From Acetobacteraceae bacterium (GTDB lineage: Bacteria > Pseudomonadota > Alphaproteobacteria > Acetobacterales > Acetobacteraceae), in NCBI GenBank assembly GCA_009693795.1, contig SHWN01000009.1, forward strand, positions 1-34,792: DNA of 34,792 nucleotides, read 5' to 3'. The notes under the pieces were generated by a model. That model did not search any database and was not told where the DNA came from. It saw nothing but the letters and a program-made list of their open reading frames with translations. Position numbers and translations under genes: made by a program. Of this stretch, positions 9,259 through 19,027 are shown one piece after another. The stretch's first letter is position 1; each line of letters begins with the position of its first letter.

Positions 9259-10395
9259 ATGACATCACACTGGGTGGGCACCTGGGCCGCGACACCGGCG
9301 CCAGCAGACGGCGTCGCGTTGAGTAGCCCGACAATTCGTATGTTTCCCCGCATTAGCATCGGTGGCGAGATGATTCGCATCCGCCTGTCGAATGCCGCCG
9401 GCAAGGGGGATCTCGTGATTGCGGCAACCCAAGTCGCCCTGCGTGCGCCGGGGGCCGCTATCCAGCCCGGGTCAGACCGGGCGGTGACCTTCAACGGCTC
9501 AGGCGCCGTGAAAATTTCCGGCGGAGCTTTTGTCATCAGCGACCCGGTGGCGCTACGCGTAGCGCCACTCGATGATCTGGCGGTCAGTATCCATATCCCC
9601 AACGATATTCCCGCCAGCTTCGGCGTGACCGGCCGCTATTCCCGCCAACTTAATTATCTGTCGCCGCCCGGCGATTTCACCTCCCATGAGGTGATGCACA
9701 CCAGCCGCATGGTGGATGACTGGTTTTTCCTGTGTGGCATCGATGTCGAGGCTAGCCCAGATGTGGGCGGCATCGTCGCCCTGGGTGATTCGATTACCGA
9801 TGGAAATATCTCCACCTACGACGCATTCGCGCGCTGGCCCGATCAACTGGCGCGCCGGCTGGTGGCGCGCGGCGGAAAAAAATTTGGGGTGATGAACCAG
9901 GGCCTGGGCGGGAACCGGATCCTGCACGACATTCGCGGCGATTCAGGTGTAAAGCGCTTCGATCGCGATGTCCTGGCACAACCCGGCGTGACCCATGCAA
10001 TCGTCGTACTCGGCATTAATGATATCCGGAACCGCCGTGGCCTAGCGGAAGAAGTCGTCACCGCGCCAGAAATGATTGCGGGGCTAAGGCAAATGGCGCT
10101 GCGCGCGCACGATCACGGCATCAAGATCTTCGGTGGCACACTAACCCCCTTTGAGAATGAAACTTTTATGCTGGGCGCCTACACGCTGGAAGGCGAGGCG
10201 AAGCGGCTCGCCGTCAATGAATGGATTCGGAGTTCCGGCGCATTTGACGCGGCGATAGATTTTGATGCCGGACTGCGCGATCCCGATCATCATGCACGGA
10301 TGCTGCCGATCTACGACAATGGCGATCATCTGCATCCTGGCGATGTGGGGTATAACCGGATGGGCGATCTGATCGATTTATCGCTATTTGATTAA
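9259..10395 (+). CDS. SGNH/GDSL hydrolase family protein
   Basis: Block I IVALGDSITDG; GLGGNRIL; VVLGINDIRN; C-terminal DHLHPGDVGYNRMGD (Asp-His). Confidence 0.92.
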   Translation: MTSHWVGTWAATPAPADGVALSSPTIRMFPRISIGGEMIRIRLSNAAGKGDLVIAATQVALRAPGAAIQPGSDRAVTFNGSGAVKISGGAFVISDPVALRVAPLDDLAVSIHIPNDIPASFGVTGRYSRQLNYLSPPGDFTSHEVMHTSRMVDDWFFLCGIDVEASPDVGGIVALGDSITDGNISTYDAFARWPDQLARRLVARGGKKFGVMNQGLGGNRILHDIRGDSGVKRFDRDVLAQPGVTHAIVVLGINDIRNRRGLAEEVVTAPEMIAGLRQMALRAHDHGIKIFGGTLTPFENETFMLGAYTLEGEAKRLAVNEWIRSSGAFDAAIDFDAGLRDPDHHARMLPIYDNGDHLHPGDVGYNRMGDLIDLSLFD

Positions 10396-10422
10396 CGCGT
10401 GCGTGTTCACGAGAGATCACCG

Positions 10423-12387
10423 ATGACGGCCAGTGCCTTGCGGATCGAGATCACCGAGCGTCTGTCCCCCGTCTTCGCGGGCACCGAATTTGACGCGGTG
10501 GGTCCATATGAATGCCTCAGCGGAACCGTTTATGGCGCGCTGGACCCGGCACATCGGCTGAATGCCGGGATTATCAATCTGGATAAGGCGCCACGCAATC
10601 CGCAAGGTTGGGTGGACTACGCGTCCGATTTTTCACTGCTGAAACCGATCGATCTGGCACGTGGCAATGGCATGTTGATCTACGACGTGCCCAATCGCGG
10701 CAACAAGGTGATCCTGACGCGGGTCAATCGCGGCGCGGAGGGCAACCGCCCGATCAACGCCGCGCATGCCGGCGATGGATTGTTGATGCGGCATGGGTTT
10801 TCCATCGTCTGGAGCGCCTGGCAGACCGAGGTACCGGCGGGCAATGACCGGCTGAACGCACAATTTCCCATCGCCACCGACCATGGCACGCCAATCACCA
10901 AAATCATCCGCGACGAGTTCATTGCCGAAGGCGCTGGCGGGCCCGGTGATCTGTTTATTCAAGAAATTTCCGACAATGTATTTATAGCCACCCTTTCCTA
11001 CGCCACCGCGGATCTCGATCCAGCCAAAGCCAGCCTGACGATCCGTGAACGCGAGCGCGATGCGCGCGCCATGCCGGCCGGGATGTCCTGGCGCTATGTC
11101 GATGCGCGGCATATTAAGATTACCCGTCCCGGTGGCGCTTATGACTGTGGCGCGATCTATGAATTTATTTATCGCGCGCGCGATCCTGCGGTGATGGGCA
11201 TCGGCTTCGCGGCCATTCGCGATCTCACAGCGTTTCTGCGCCACGGCGTCGTCGATAGCGCTGGCACGCCAAACCCGTTGGCTGTGACTGGGCGGGCAAC
11301 CATTCGTCACGCGCTGGGCTTCGGGATTTCGCAAAGCGGGCGCGTTCTGCGCGATTTCGTACATCTTGGATTTAACGAGGACACGGCGGAGCGCCAGGTA
11401 TTCGATGGCATTTTTACCATCGTCTCTGGTTCCCGGCGAACATTCATCAATCAGGCATTCGCGCAGCCGGGGCGGTATTCCCGCCAGCACGAAGATCACT
11501 CATTTTTGGATGACCAATTCCCGTTTACTTATCCAACACTGACGGATCCAATCAGCCGGCAAACCGGTGGCATCTTGCAACGAGCAACGGACAAAAATAT
11601 CTGCCCAAAACTGCTGCATCTGGATGCCGACTCAGATCTCTGGGCGGCGCGCGCCTCGCTCGTGGTTACCGATCCCAGTGGCAACGATATCGTATTACCA
11701 GACAATGTGCGGGCCTATTTGGCCGCCAGCGTGCAGCACGGCGTGCATCGCCCACCGGTGAAGCCCGCGACGCAACTGCCGAGTAATCCGCTCAGCTACG
11801 CGTGGAACATGCGCGCCTTACTATTGGCCTTGGCACAATGGGTGGCGGACGGGACATTACCGCCGCCCAGCCGGTTTCCATCGCGCGCCGCCGGCACATT
11901 GGTCACCTTGGCGGAGGCGACCGCACAATTCCCGAAAATACCCGGCATGGAATTTCCCGATGTGCTGAACGCCTTGCATTTACGCGATCACAGCGTAGAG
12001 CCGCCGCGGGATGCGCAAGAGTATCCGGTTTTTGTCTGTGCGACGGATGCGGATGGCAACAGCCTGGATGGCATTCGCCATCCGCTACTCAGCGCGCCCA
12101 TCGCGACCCATACCGGGTGGTCCTTACGCGCGCCGGGCTTCGCGGCTGGGGATTTATTTTCCGTTCAGGGTTCAATTCTCCCCTTCCCCGCAACAGCAGG
12201 GGACGCGGCGCGCAGCGGTGATCCCCGTCCATCACTGGCAGAACGCTACCCGACCCATGATCACTGGCTCGCCTTGCTTCGCCAGGCCGCCGCGATATTG
12301 ATCGCGGAACGGCATTTGCTACGAGAAGATGCTGATCGATTGCTCGCGGCGGCGCAAACATCCCGAGATGTGCTGGACATTCTGTAA
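10423..12387 (+). CDS. Alpha/beta hydrolase domain-containing protein (large uncharacterised family)
   Basis: About 654 aa; GFGISQSGRVLRDFVHLGFNED (nucleophile elbow-like GxSxxG); YDVPNRGNK. ATG at 10423 preferred over the ORF start at 10399. Confidence 0.75.
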   Translation: MTASALRIEITERLSPVFAGTEFDAVGPYECLSGTVYGALDPAHRLNAGIINLDKAPRNPQGWVDYASDFSLLKPIDLARGNGMLIYDVPNRGNKVILTRVNRGAEGNRPINAAHAGDGLLMRHGFSIVWSAWQTEVPAGNDRLNAQFPIATDHGTPITKIIRDEFIAEGAGGPGDLFIQEISDNVFIATLSYATADLDPAKASLTIRERERDARAMPAGMSWRYVDARHIKITRPGGAYDCGAIYEFIYRARDPAVMGIGFAAIRDLTAFLRHGVVDSAGTPNPLAVTGRATIRHALGFGISQSGRVLRDFVHLGFNEDTAERQVFDGIFTIVSGSRRTFINQAFAQPGRYSRQHEDHSFLDDQFPFTYPTLTDPISRQTGGILQRATDKNICPKLLHLDADSDLWAARASLVVTDPSGNDIVLPDNVRAYLAASVQHGVHRPPVKPATQLPSNPLSYAWNMRALLLALAQWVADGTLPPPSRFPSRAAGTLVTLAEATAQFPKIPGMEFPDVLNALHLRDHSVEPPRDAQEYPVFVCATDADGNSLDGIRHPLLSAPIATHTGWSLRAPGFAAGDLFSVQGSILPFPATAGDAARSGDPRPSLAERYPTHDHWLALLRQAAAILIAERHLLREDADRLLAAAQTSRDVLDIL

Positions 12388-12737: not shown

Positions 12738-12841
12738 GCTATCCTCCTGTTTATCTACCGCGCCGACCCTAACGTAGGATGCGTGGCGATAGAAGCGTCC
12801 ATGGTGCAACAGGAGACCATAGAAATGGCGTCCCGCGCGGC

Positions 12842-14755
12842 ATGATCATCGGCACCGCCGGCCATGTTGATCACGGCAAAACCAGCCTGGTGCGCGCGCT
12901 TACCGGGGTCGAAACAGATCGTCTCCCGGAAGAAAAGGCGCGCGGTATCACCATCGATCTCGGCTTCGCCTATGTGCAGCTGGATCATGGCGGCGTGATG
13001 GGTTTTGTCGACGTGCCGGGGCATGAACGTCTGGTCCACACCATGATTGCTGGGGCGTCCAGCATTGGCATGGCGCTTCTGGTGGTCGCCGCCGATGACG
13101 GCGTGATGCCGCAGACGCGCGAACATGTGCAGATCCTTGCGTCACTCGGCATTGCGCGCGCCGTGGTGGCGCTGACCAAGACCGATCTGGTGGATGCCGA
13201 TCGCGTGGCGGAGCTGGAGCTGGAAATCTCCCTGTTGCTGGAAGGCACGCCGCTCGCGGGCGCCGCGATATTTCCCGTCTCCGCCACGACAGGTGCAGGC
13301 GTGGGTCCATTGCGCGCCAGTTTGCTGGCCGAAGCCGCGCGGGATGTATCCGCCCACACCGCCGATGGCCGCGCCTTTCGTCTTGCGGTGGATCGCTGTT
13401 TTAGCCTCGCCGGCACGGGAACCGTGGTGACCGGTTCGGTCGTGGCCGGGCTGGTGCGCGTGGGGGAGAACGTGCTGGTGCAACCGCCCGGTTTACGCGC
13501 GCGCGTGCGTGGCATCCATGTCGCCAACCGCGCGGTGGAGCAAGCCCGCGCGGGGGAGCGCTGCGCGCTGAACCTGACCGGCCCCGGCATCAGCAAAGAC
13601 GCAATCGGGCGTGGCGACTGGGTGCTAGATCCGGCGCGCGCCACCAGCACGCGGCGCTGCGATATCGCGCTGCGACTACTGGAGAGTGAGCGCGCGGCGA
13701 TGAAGCAAATGACACAGGTGCTACTGCATCACGGCGCCGGGCAAATGGCGGCGCGGGTAATCTTGCTAGAACCAACAACACTGCGCCCCGGGCAGGCCGG
13801 TTTCGCACATCTGGTGCTGGATCGGCCCTTGCCGATGCGCCATGGCGACCGGCTGGTGCTTCGCGATATCAGTGCCACCCGCACCATCGCCGGCGGCCAG
13901 GCGCTGGACCCACGGCCACCGGAACGCCTACGCCGCGCACCCGCAAGAATCGCCGTGTTAAAAGCGCTGTCGGCACCCGATACCAACGCGGCGCTGCGTG
14001 GCTGGCTCGCACAACCGCCCTTCCTGATCGCCCACACCGCGCTGCTGGATGATTGGGGATTGATCGAGACAACACGACCGCCCGACATCGTTACATACGG
14101 CACGCATATCGCGACCGAAGCGGCGGTCGGGCAATTAACGGCGGAGACGGCGCGCGAACTATTAAAATTCCATACGGCGCAGCCCGGCCAGCCGGGCATG
14201 ACGCCGGAGGCGTTGCGCATCGCGATGACAACACGGCTGCCGCGCGATGCTTTTACCGCGCTGCTGGCGCATCTCCTGGCCTCGGGCGCAGTGGCTGCGG
14301 ATGGCGCCATACTACGCGCTCCCACCCATCGCCGCGGTTTGGCTGAGGAGGAGGCCCGGCTTTGGGACGCGCTGCGCCCGTTACTAAACGAAATGCCGTA
14401 TCGTCCACCCTTGCTGCGCGAGGCCGCCGCGACACTCGGGGCACCAGAGGTCACATTGCGCCGCACCTGCAAGGCCTTCGCGCGCCAGGGTTTGATCCTC
14501 GAACTGGCGCCGGACCGCTTCTTCCTACGCGATGCGGTGATCGCCATGGCGCAAGCGGCGCATACGCTGGCTGCTGAAATCCGGGACGGTTTCACCGCCG
14601 CGCAATTCCGCGACCTTTTGGGCAATGGGCGGCAATTGGCGATCCAGGTGCTGGACGATTTCGACCGGCGCGGTATCACCGTCCGACGCAGCGATCTGCG
14701 CCGTGCGGGCAAGGACCCGGCCAAAATCTTTGGTCCAGGAACCTTAGGACAATAA
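12842..14755 (+). CDS. selB: Selenocysteine-specific translation elongation factor SelB
   Basis: [44 protein letters not shown] (P-loop, G2), [16 protein letters not shown] (G3), TKTDLVD (G4), plus a long C-terminal region ending [27 protein letters not shown] (winged-helix, SelB-specific). Confidence 0.96.
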
Positions 14756-14766
14756 GGACAAAGCGC

Positions 14767-15666
14767 ATGGCAGCGTGGGATGTGGTGGTGATCGGCGGCG
14801 GCGCGGCCGGGCTGAGCGCAGCGGCTACGGCGGCAAGCGCGGGCCTATCCTGCCTGGTGCTGGACCGCATGGGCGGCGGCGGCGAATTGATGAATCTCGG
14901 CAAACTGGAGGAGGTGGATGGCGCGCCCACCGGCCCCGACATGGTGGCCCAATTACTGGAAGCAGCCATGACGACCGGCGCGGAACTGGCGGTCGCGGAA
15001 GTCACCGGCCTGGTCGTCGACGCAACCGGTTGGCAAATCACCACCGACGACGGAGCGCATGCGGCGCGCGCCGTCATCCTGGCTGTGGGCCTGGCACCGG
15101 GCCGCCTGGGCATCGCAGGAGAGGACACGTTCGAGGGTCGGGGCCTGTCCTATTGCGCCGCCTGCGATGGCCCGCTTTATCGCGGCCAGCCTATGTTGGT
15201 CGCTGGTACGGATCGTTGGGCAATCGCGGAGGCGCATGAGTTATCGACGATTGCCTCCCATGTCACCTTGGTCACGCAGGGCGGAATGCCGCCCGCCACC
15301 GCTGCGGGCTTCGCGGTGCTGCCCGGACGCATCACGGCGCTGCAGGGCGAATCCGGCCTCAAATCCGTCCTGGTGCAGCCCGAGGACGGTGGCGCGGAAC
15401 AACGCCTGCACGGCCCCGTTCTATTCGTGCAAACCGGCCGGCGCCCAGCGCTCGATTTTGCCCCGACCACTCTCATTCGCGATCCAGACGGCAAGTTGGT
15501 GACGGATGCGACCGGGCAATGTCACCCGCCGGGCCTGTTCGCGGCCGGTGATGCCCGAGCTGGCACATCCCGGACCATTGCCGCCGCGATCGCCGATGGG
15601 AACCGCGCCGCGATCGCCGCACAGGGTATGTTCTCCCCCCTTGGCAAGCCCACCGGTTCGGAGTGA
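14767..15666 (+). CDS. Thioredoxin-reductase-like FAD-dependent oxidoreductase
   Basis: FAD motif VVVIGGGAAGLSAAATAASAG; redox-active GLSYCAACDGPLY; C-terminal GLFAAGDARAGTSRTIAAAIADG. The NADPH-binding segment is atypical (MLVAGTDRWAIAEAHEL). Confidence 0.9.
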   Translation: MAAWDVVVIGGGAAGLSAAATAASAGLSCLVLDRMGGGGELMNLGKLEEVDGAPTGPDMVAQLLEAAMTTGAELAVAEVTGLVVDATGWQITTDDGAHAARAVILAVGLAPGRLGIAGEDTFEGRGLSYCAACDGPLYRGQPMLVAGTDRWAIAEAHELSTIASHVTLVTQGGMPPATAAGFAVLPGRITALQGESGLKSVLVQPEDGGAEQRLHGPVLFVQTGRRPALDFAPTTLIRDPDGKLVTDATGQCHPPGLFAAGDARAGTSRTIAAAIADGNRAAIAAQGMFSPLGKPTGSE

Positions 15667-15697: not shown

Positions 15698-16216
15698 ATG
15701 CGCATTGTGAATCCCAGTTTCGGCATTGCGCCGCAGGGCGAGGGCACCGCCACGGCGGAGCCCGTCGATTGGATCAATGATCCGATCATTCTGTTTTCCA
15801 ACAACAAGCCCAACGCCAAGGAATTGCTGCAGGGGCTGCGTGATCGCCTCTCCGCCGTCCGCCGCGTGGACAATATCGACTACATCGCCAAGGCCAGCGC
15901 CAGCCAGCCGGCGCCGCCCGAGATGATCAACGAAATCGCACGCAAGTATCGCATCGCGCTGCTTGCGCTGGGTGACTGAGGCTCCTGCTCATCGTGGAGT
16001 TTCCACGACAGCATCGAATTAAGGAAACGCGGCCTGGTCGGGGTGGTGATCGCCACGGAAACGTTTCGGCCATTGGTCCTGGCACAGGCGAAAGCCCGCA
16101 AGCTCGACCCACACCTGCTCGTGGTAAAGCACCCGGTCGGTGGGCTGAACGGGTCCGAGCTTGAGGAGCGGATCACCGCCGCAGTTGAGGGCCTGAAGCT
16201 GGAGATGCAGAGGTAG
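15698..16216 (+). CDS. UGSC-type selenoprotein, 172 aa with Sec at codon 94 (TGA 15977-15979)
   Basis: MRIVNPSFGIAPQGEGTATAEPVDWINDPIILFSNNKPNAKELLQGLRDRLSAVRRVDNIDYIAKASASQPAPPEMINEIARKYRIALLALGD-U-GSCSSWSFHDSIELRKRGLVGVVIATETFRPLVLAQAKARKLDPHLLVVKHPVGGLNGSELEERITAAVEGLKLEMQR-TAG. The frame is continuous and protein-like on both sides of a single TGA, a SECIS-like hairpin follows, and the gene lies two genes downstream of selB. Confidence 0.92.
15980..16013 (+). promoter_or_regulatory. Bacterial SECIS element of the UGSC selenoprotein
   Basis: Immediately 3' of the TGA. Perfect 7-bp stem TCGTGGA (15992-15998)/TCCACGA (16002-16008) with GTT apical loop, extended by TGCT (15986-15989)/AGCA (16010-16013) across a CA/C internal loop. 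The apical loop begins 19 nt after the TGA with G as its first base, matching the known bacterial SECIS layout. Confidence 0.85.
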
Positions 16217-16300: not shown

Positions 16301-17350
16301 ATGTCCGATACCGCCGAGGCCGAATTTCTCGACATTCCGGAAATGGATGAAGATGCCTGGGCCGACTATGTGGAGGCTCAGGGCTGGACCGATGGCCTGC
16401 CTTTGGTGGTGCCATCGGAGCCTGCGGTGGCACGCATGATGGACGGCGCGCGCGGCGATAACGAGCCGTTCGCGGCGATCACACCCCGCCAGATGGTCCC
16501 AACCCTCCGCGGCCTGGCCGCCAATGCGGTGATGGCCGGTTGTCGGCCGAGCTATTTTCCGGCGGTTCTGGCCGCACTGCGCGGCGTGCTGGTGGCCGAT
16601 TACAATCTACACGGTTCCCTGGCGACGACGCATTCCTGCACGCCAATGGTGATGGTGAACGGACCGCTACGACAGGCCCTGAACATCAATTGCGGCACCA
16701 ACTGCTTCGGCCAGGGCTGGCGAGCCAATGCCGCCATCGGCCGCGCGCTGCAACTGATCCTACTCAATATCGGCGGCGCGAAACCGGCGGTGATGGACCG
16801 TTCCACTTTCGGATCTTCCGCCAAATACACATTCTGCTTTGGCGAAAATGAGGAGGAGAATCCCTTCGCGCCTTATCATGTCCGCCAGGGTTTTAGCGCC
16901 GATGAAAGCGTGGTGACGGTGATGTCGGCGGAACCCAACCATAACCTGAATGACCATGGCAGCACGACAGGCGAAGGCCTACTAACCACCTTTGCCGGCG
17001 CCATCGCCTCCCCGGCTGCGAACACGGCCTCCGCCAAAGGGCCGTATTTCATCATCTTCGGGCCGGAGCACGCGGCCACCCTGGCGCGCGATAACTGGAC
17101 GGTAGAAAAAATCCAGCAATTCCTGTTCGAAACCGCGCGGATCCCCGTGGCGCAGGTGTCGCGGGAAAATCAGGCGATCTATGCCACTGCCGGCCATGTT
17201 CCGGAAAACAACGCCTTCAAGACAGCCCCAACGGCCGAAGATATCCATGTTGCGGTCGCCGGCGGAGCGGGCAAGCATTCGGCCTGGATCCCGTCCTTCG
17301 GCGGCACGGCGGCGATTTCCATCCGCGTGAAGCCGCCAGCTGCCGGATGA
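16301..17350 (+). CDS. Uncharacterised protein, paralog A of the selenoprotein-linked pair
   Basis: 349 aa, good SD (agaggagg). Motifs shared with the next gene: DGLPLVVP, AGCRPxxF, NxGTNCxGxGxRANAxIGRALxLxLxNIGGAxP, PTAEDIHVAVAGGAGKHSAW. Confidence 0.85.
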   Translation: MSDTAEAEFLDIPEMDEDAWADYVEAQGWTDGLPLVVPSEPAVARMMDGARGDNEPFAAITPRQMVPTLRGLAANAVMAGCRPSYFPAVLAALRGVLVADYNLHGSLATTHSCTPMVMVNGPLRQALNINCGTNCFGQGWRANAAIGRALQLILLNIGGAKPAVMDRSTFGSSAKYTFCFGENEEENPFAPYHVRQGFSADESVVTVMSAEPNHNLNDHGSTTGEGLLTTFAGAIASPAANTASAKGPYFIIFGPEHAATLARDNWTVEKIQQFLFETARIPVAQVSRENQAIYATAGHVPENNAFKTAPTAEDIHVAVAGGAGKHSAWIPSFGGTAAISIRVKPPAAG

Positions 17351-18351
17351 GTATTCGCACCATCCAGGTCGGCGATCGCGAGGCGCCATTGTTTAGCGCC
17401 GATGCCGATTGGGATACCGCCCAGGCAAAGCTGCTCGACGCAGCGTTGGCGGACGGGCTACCAGTCGTGGTGCCGACCGAGGCGCGCCTGAGCACCATGC
17501 TGGCCGGGCGCGACCCGGATCTCGGGTACGGCTTCATGCCGCCCTTATTTGGGGAAATCACGGCAGCTTCCATCGCCTATTGCTGCGTCATCGCGGGCTG
17601 TCGTCCGAAAGAGTTTTCCGTGGTGCTGGAAGCCGCCATCGCCACGTTGGAGCCGGAATTCAATCTGCTGGGCATTCAAACCACCACCGGCACGCCCACC
17701 GCCGCCGTGCTGGTGCATGGCCCCGCCGTGGTCGCGCTGGGAATGAATGCGGGCACCAACTGCCTCGGCCCCGGCAATCGCGCCAATGCGTGCATTGGCC
17801 GCGCGCTGCGCCTGGTCCTCACCAATATCGGCGGCGCGCGGCCGCTGATCGGCGACATGGCGACGATGGGTCAGCCGGCCAAATACGGTCTCGCCTTTGC
17901 CGAGGGTGAGCATGCCCTCGTCCGCCCACTGCACGCACGGCGCGGCCTGGATGCAGGTGAAAGTGCCGTCACCGTCATCGGTCTCTCCGGCACGATCGAG
18001 GTGCTGCCCGAAGCCGGCGCCAGCACACCGGAAGCCGTGCTGCGCCCTGCGCTGGCCGCCATGCAAGGAGCGCGCGAAGCCGCATTCGGCGGTCGCCACC
18101 GCGACCTCGGCGAACAATTCCTGCTGCTGCCACCGGAAATGGCCGATATTTTCGTCGCAGCGGGCTGGACGTTGGAACAAGCGCAGGCATTTCTGCAACG
18201 TCAGTCCGGTACCGAACGACCAATCGCGCGCGCACCGGAAGATATTCATATTATCCTCACCGGCGGAGCTGGCGTAAAAATGACCTGCCTGGTTCCCTGG
18301 GGCGGTGGCACGATGTGCGCAACACGACGCCTACCGGGGATATCCGCCTAA
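17347..18351 (+). CDS. Uncharacterised protein, paralog B of the selenoprotein-linked pair
   Basis: 334 aa; starts within ATGA overlapping the stop of the previous gene. DGLPVVVP, AGCRPKEF, NAGTNCLGPGNRANACIGRALRLVLTNIGGARP, APEDIHIILTGGAGVKMTCLVPWGGG. Confidence 0.85.
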   Translation: MSIRTIQVGDREAPLFSADADWDTAQAKLLDAALADGLPVVVPTEARLSTMLAGRDPDLGYGFMPPLFGEITAASIAYCCVIAGCRPKEFSVVLEAAIATLEPEFNLLGIQTTTGTPTAAVLVHGPAVVALGMNAGTNCLGPGNRANACIGRALRLVLTNIGGARPLIGDMATMGQPAKYGLAFAEGEHALVRPLHARRGLDAGESAVTVIGLSGTIEVLPEAGASTPEAVLRPALAAMQGAREAAFGGRHRDLGEQFLLLPPEMADIFVAAGWTLEQAQAFLQRQSGTERPIARAPEDIHIILTGGAGVKMTCLVPWGGGTMCATRRLPGISA

Positions 18352-18395: not shown

Positions 18396-19027
18396 GTGCC
18401 GTTGGCACAGGTGGATGTTAGCCATCCTTGCCTCTACCAGGACGACACCTGGGGCGGCTTCTTCGCGCGGCTGCGCGCCGAGGATCCGGTGCATTTCGCG
18501 AACAACTCCATGTATGGCCCGTACTGGTCCGTGACGAAATATCACGACATTCTGCAGGTCGGTAATCGCACCAAATTTATTCCTCGGACGCATCTCTGGG
18601 GGGTATCGCGATCAAGGATGTGCCGCTCGCGTTCCGTAAGGAAAGTTTCATCGCCATGGTCCCTTCGGTGCATGACGAACGAAGAAAAACAGTCAACCCC
18701 ATCGTCGCCCCACCCAATCTAATGAAACTTTCGGGCACGATCCGCAAACGTGCCTGCCGCATCCCCAATGACTTTCCGCACGGTAAAATATACGACTAGA
18801 TCGATCGCGTGTTCGTGGAGCTCACCACGCGGATGCAGTCCACATTGTTTGATTTTCCGTTCGAGAAACGGCGCATCCTGACCCATTGGTCGAACGTCGC
18901 GACGGTGAATACCCGCGCCGAGACCGAGATCGACTCCGAAGCCAAGCGCGAGGCCGTGCTGCGACAGATAGTGGCCTATTTCATCGATATCTGGCGCATT
19001 CGTGCCGCCCCCCCGCACCGGATTTGA
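18396..19027 (+). pseudogene. Cytochrome P450 remnant (frameshift, in-frame stop, truncated)
   Basis: DPVHFANNSMYGPYWSVTKYHDILQV, then frameshift near 18598, GIAIKDVPLAFRKESFIAMVPSVHDERRKTVNPIVAPPNL...KIYD-stop (TAG 18797-18799)-IDRVFVELTTRMQSTLFDFPFEKRRILTHWSNVAT. Ends before the I-helix and heme-Cys region. Confidence 0.85.

Follow-up and report, generated by a model that had tools for sequence, protein, structure and literature searches.

What do two overlapping genes of no recognizable family do beside a selenoprotein that has itself lacked an assigned role? The window analyzed here, a stretch of 34,792 nucleotides from an Acetobacteraceae bacterium, carries such a pair, which we call A and B, downstream of a gene of the UGSC selenoprotein family. 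UGSC was recognized in marine metagenomes by 2008 at the latest and ranks among the commonest selenoprotein families there (PMC2398784); a 2026 review, which groups it with Sec redox proteins, still lists it without a function (PMC13188914), and neither source describes a partner. UGSC itself is thus familiar, and what is new is a partner family for it, one without any representative in Pfam, NCBIfam or the PDB.

A (349 aa) and B (334 aa) lie on the forward strand at 16301-17350 and 17347-18351 and overlap by 4 nt, ATGA, with the B start codon inside the A stop. Their products are 35% identical across the whole length (pairwise alignment, E 3e-50, far above chance), which bears out the original prediction of two tandem paralogs. 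Most of the shared motifs listed in that prediction also hold: the GTNCxGxGxRANAxIGRALxLxLxNIGGAxP block, AGCRPxxF and EDIH...GGAG occur in both proteins. The exceptions are DGLPLVVP, said to be common to the two and reading DGLPVVVP in B, and the Trp said to close the EDIH element, whose position differs in B (GGAGVKMTCLVPW). Relatives of A were found in at least 574 stretches of GTDB genomes, and in the best 80, from which our counts of A-B pairs and of their TrxR-like neighbors are drawn, the gene order TrxR-UGSC-A-B recurs, TrxR denoting a thioredoxin reductase-like gene. B is present at 61 of the 66 A loci with room downstream, a few loci having A alone or two A-type copies. The expected translational coupling is general, with 34/64 A-B pairs overlapping and 61/64 lying within 50 bp. 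An ancient duplication is likewise upheld by the tree, where A and B form separate clades, A as a single clade (SH-aLRT 100) and B likewise only when one diverged copy (L074) is included; because both clades span Alphaproteobacteria and Actinomycetota, the split must be old. Other paralogs fall between A and B and the root is uncertain, so the two need not be each other's closest relatives.

Conservation across an alignment of 124 sequences, drawn from A, B and more remote members of the family, refines the picture of the cysteines, of which the original prediction had singled out those in GCRP and GTNC. The GCRP Cys is a family-wide feature (94%), whereas the GTNC Cys belongs to the A type, being present in 100% of A, 60% of B and 22% of the other members; the second family-wide Cys is instead C179 (FCFGENEE, 88%), absent from the earlier list. 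Invariant or near-invariant positions comprise D31-G32-x-P34, P38, A79-G80-C81, G121-P122, R148, E182 and G321, and the polar residues among the conserved positions are the invariant D31, R148 and E182 and the near-invariant C81, C179 and K175. In A the conserved features are DGLP, AGC81, C113, NC131..NC135FGQG, R148, C179FGE182 and GGxGKHSA, and three of its cysteines, C113, C131 and C135, are A-specific, standing beside C81 and C179; a metal site there was considered as a possibility.

No enzyme family could be assigned to A and B at the outset, and this remains so: searches of Pfam, NCBIfam and the PDB found no relative with either the proteins or their profiles. In Pfam there was no hit for A or B with the threshold relaxed to E 1, PDB sequence searches with both (phmmer and profile) gave a best E no lower than 0.08, and members of the family are annotated, where annotated at all, solely as "hypothetical protein". 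The AlphaFold2 model of A is confident (pLDDT 93.1, pTM 0.92), and Foldseek returned no convincing neighbor for it in the PDB (best E 1.4e-3, TM-score 0.18-0.25, rmsd 12-16 Å). The top matches, cyclic amide hydrolases of the Toblerone fold (cyanuric acid hydrolase, barbiturase) and class I fumarase, have no sequence relation to A and a structural similarity that is not significant; being weak and of high rmsd, the matches were not taken as evidence of homology. No characterized non-redox enzyme thus emerged as a strong match from the Pfam, NCBIfam, PDB and Foldseek searches.

The gene just upstream (15698-16216, forward strand, 172 aa) is a plain member of the UGSC family (PF24696/NF041046). 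The portion before its in-frame TGA matches PF24696 at E 4.5e-10, with 40.3 bits against a curated cut-off of 25, and reading through the TGA at 15977-15979 yields the motif D-U-G-S-C. A putative bacterial SECIS hairpin (15977-16030, forward strand, stem CGUGGA-GUU-UCCACG) follows the Sec codon; its predicted folding energy of -14.6 kcal/mol (z -1.5) is modestly better than that of shuffles, and its DNA is identical in 6/6 species, synonymous sites included. The Sec-specific elongation factor SelB is encoded nearby on the same strand (12779-14755, true start likely near 12842) and is likewise a neighbor of the cluster at roughly ten related loci, while SelA and tRNA-Sec lie side by side elsewhere in the genome (G000:C109:18788-20045), apart from the window's SelB. 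Because the Sec-site TGA, the conserved hairpin, SelA and tRNA-Sec all occur in one genome, we take the window's UGSC to be a real selenoprotein. A stop codon occupies the Sec site in 74/74 UGSC genes found beside A, and in three loci of Geodermatophilaceae (L077, L078 and L080; Blastococcus and Geodermatophilus) TAG replaces TGA, in keeping with a lineage known to use UAG for Sec, a codon switch already published (as cited in PMC5330540). AlphaFold2 predicts for UGSC a flavodoxin-like alpha/beta domain (pLDDT 83) in which Sec sits where a central strand ends and leads into a helix; Foldseek was uninformative here, since this Rossmann-like fold is common to many unrelated proteins.

The original prediction tied A and B to the selenoprotein, and this link turned out to be tight. 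UGSC (PF24696) occurs in 38 of 385 alphaproteobacterial genomes, in up to eight copies per genome, and a profile built from A, B and distant members (A4), run on the same 385 genomes, found the A/B family in exactly the same 38, leaving 347 with neither; the corresponding Fisher P of 2e-53 overstates independence, as a single class was sampled and its genomes are related. A family member lies on the same strand within 1.5 kb of 91/96 UGSC genes, and within 200 bp of 89/96; reciprocally, UGSC lies within 2.5 kb of 112/120 family members, and the exceptions, five UGSC genes and eight family members, are on contigs that carry no partner. Most of the wider family occurs singly beside UGSC: one partner accompanies 69 of the 96 UGSC genes and two accompany 22. 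In some genes UGSC reads through into a family member as a single polypeptide, in several cases followed by a second member, and Pfam confirms the UGSC part of two such fusions (L138, L148). Plasmid-borne relatives widen the range to haloarchaea, Beta- and Gammaproteobacteria, Actinomycetota and Sporomusa. That UGSC has A and B, paralogs of ancient origin, as its partners is therefore well supported, and the fusions lend indirect support to a physical complex that A, B and UGSC would form.

Sec/Cys exchange in UGSC tracks the presence of SelA. SelA is missing from 5 of 39 genomes tested (G599, G632, G143, G277 and G309); the first four genomes are close to complete, and no stop interrupts the frame of their UGSC genes, the motif in G143 and G277 having been read directly as CGSC. 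The fifth, G309, carries a TGA-UGSC in a genome that is only 77% complete. The A/B-family partner is retained with either residue.

How, then, might such a unit be supplied with electrons? The original prediction had read the selenoprotein and the conserved cysteines as a hint of thiol or selenenyl chemistry, and thiol electron donors do recur around the family. In the window, a flavoprotein with a CAAC redox motif is encoded at 14767-15666 on the forward strand (Pyr_redox_2, E 3e-20). Its CxxC motif and its match to TIGR01292 (E 2.8e-52) resemble thioredoxin reductase TrxB, but its score of 177 bits falls below the cut-off of 343, so we regard it as a diverged, cluster-dedicated relative and not the housekeeping enzyme. 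It has no typical GGGxxA NADPH motif, which makes NADPH as the donor an assumption. A TrxR-like gene is found near A at 52 of 70 loci with room upstream (44 before and 8 after) and is missing nearby at the other 18, about a quarter of these A-B loci. Elsewhere the order is trxB-trxA-A-UGSC (Arthrobacter) or A-UGSC-trxB (Roseovarius), in Variovorax trxB lies three genes upstream of an A-like gene, and one clade of the family has a fused N-terminal domain with CPTC and "VPTL" that looks thioredoxin-like, though its Pfam matches are weak. We propose that the TrxR-like gene, the trxB-trxA pair and the fused CPTC domain are alternative thiol electron supplies to the same pair of partners.

On balance, we consider it probable that A, B, UGSC and a thiol donor together make up a selenocysteine-dependent reductase, in which A and B are paralogs of an unnamed family and UGSC is the constant partner. 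A and B would bind the substrate, and the Sec of UGSC, located where a beta-strand of its flavodoxin-like domain ends, would act on it as a selenolate nucleophile or reductant. The neighboring Cys of the UGSC motif would then resolve the intermediate as a Se-S bond, which the upstream TrxR-like protein or, in relatives, a separate or fused thioredoxin would re-reduce. The direction of electron flow, the reductase chemistry and the role of Sec as nucleophile are features that we infer by analogy.

The family's genomic neighbors, which we identified by cross-locus clustering, codon-position GC and RefSeq-annotated plasmids because longest-ORF lists of this GC-rich DNA are full of shadow ORFs, bear on the substrate. 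Recurrent at independent loci are luciferase-like monooxygenases, amidohydrolases, amidases, type III CoA-transferases, enoyl-CoA hydratases, isocitrate lyase/PEP mutase-like and phosphosulfolactate synthase-like proteins, and transporters of the TRAP, Tct and branched-chain types. They suggest that small carboxylic acids or amides are catabolized, the substrate varying between loci. In the window, the nearest candidates for a link to the substrate are two ORFs that, from their translations, appear to encode an SGNH hydrolase-like protein (9259-10395) and a 662-aa hydrolase-like protein (10399-12387). The family of the latter recurs near UGSC-A-B in six other loci (L045, L052, L053, L065, L073 and L125), and a large dimethylformamidase-like protein is also seen at five of those six. 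A short, apparently truncated ORF resembling a cytochrome P450 N-terminus lies directly downstream of B (18396-18722). A haloarchaeon and an Arthrobacter (L194, L199) each have a phosphosulfolactate synthase-like gene close to UGSC/A, which may hint at organosulfur substrates.

Must the chemistry be redox at all? Cysteine serves as an acid-base catalyst or covalent nucleophile in Asp/Glu racemases and maleate isomerases, and the Sec or Cys of UGSC could do likewise if A and B were hydrolases, lyases or isomerases of small acids or cyclic amides, the thiol donors merely keeping Sec reduced in air. Two fusions of UGSC to A speak for such an enzyme: those of Vibrio europaeus (ALADMGTS; L197:7380-9065, plasmid pVEu) and Sporomusa termitida (ALGDMGTS; L198:7308-9032, plasmid pSPTER) carry Met where Sec or Cys would stand and are encoded next to aconitase X, close to DUF126 genes. 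At least some relatives thus perform a function that requires neither residue: either the redox step has been lost in them or the core reaction is independent of Sec/Cys. The neighbors, largely hydrolases, CoA-ester enzymes and acid transporters, would suit this chemistry, as would the resemblance of the A model to class I fumarases and barbiturase (Foldseek probability 0.1-0.6, TM 0.2-0.25), although with TM about 0.25 and rmsd above 12 Å those matches fall short of significance. Against it, a UxxC pair with a dedicated TrxR, Trx or fused Trx domain would be a costly investment for mere protection. We judge a non-redox enzyme unlikely overall, and it is because of the two Met-bearing fusions that we leave it a real, if minor, chance.

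The same donors, together with the classing of UGSC among Sec redox proteins (PMC13188914), could also fit detoxification or repair, in which UGSC would be a Sec-dependent peroxidase or disulfide reductase, its protein or small-molecule acceptors being A/B; however, the neighborhoods are catabolic, have dedicated transporters and differ between loci, and up to eight paralogous copies per genome suggest varied substrates instead of a single, general repair role, which together make this improbable. That A and B are non-catalytic, chaperone-like or cofactor-binding maturation factors for UGSC, as their obligate pairing with it and their lack of a recognizable catalytic motif might suggest, is the least likely possibility, given the invariant D31, R148 and E182 and near-invariant C81, C179 and K175, and given that fusion and divergence into A and B forms better fit substrate-specific catalytic subunits.

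A selenocysteine-dependent reductase, the interpretation we prefer, has well-studied precedents. In D-proline reductase, the Sec of PrdB is thought to be the nucleophile acting on a substrate held by PrdA, a Cys of PrdB resolves the selenoether and PrdC reduces the resulting Se-S bond, and glycine reductase draws its electrons via thioredoxin reductase and thioredoxin (PMC3091704). The A-B-UGSC cluster would share with these systems (PrdA/PrdB/PrdC; GrdB/GrdE) a layout of a small UxxC Sec protein, a substrate-binding partner and a dedicated thiol/selenol chain. The likeness is one of layout and not of membership: A and B match no model of the GrdE/PrdA family in Pfam, and across the A/B family there is no conserved N-C or T-C site at which a pyruvoyl group could form. 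Self-cleavage of the GrdE/PrdA kind was considered for N134-C135, which is conserved in A, and rejected, as the Cys falls to the frequencies given above for GTNC in B and in the other members. On the selenoprotein side, alignment of UGSC with a PrdB-like profile (hhalign) places Sec and Cys in register, a weak match with a probability of 7% and a single-comparison E of 0.005, and the scanned part of UGSC has no match to PF07355 (GrdB/PrdB). Within Alphaproteobacteria, PF07355 marks separate PrdB-like selenoproteins, and in the short loci examined no A-like gene adjoins any of them; three with a UPxC motif (L161, L162 and L163) are encoded apart from UGSC clusters.

An obligate partner, fusions, electron donors and a two-paralog form turn an orphan selenoprotein into a defined, expressible and testable candidate complex. 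More tentatively, A and B may found an enzyme superfamily of their own, whose fold would be new in the sense of not being recognized in the PDB, the database compared. Together with UGSC they might then represent a widespread, multi-copy class of Sec- (or Cys-) dependent enzymes of bacteria and haloarchaea acting on many substrates, one that would parallel the clostridial Sec-dependent reductases while being built on unrelated substrate-binding subunits.
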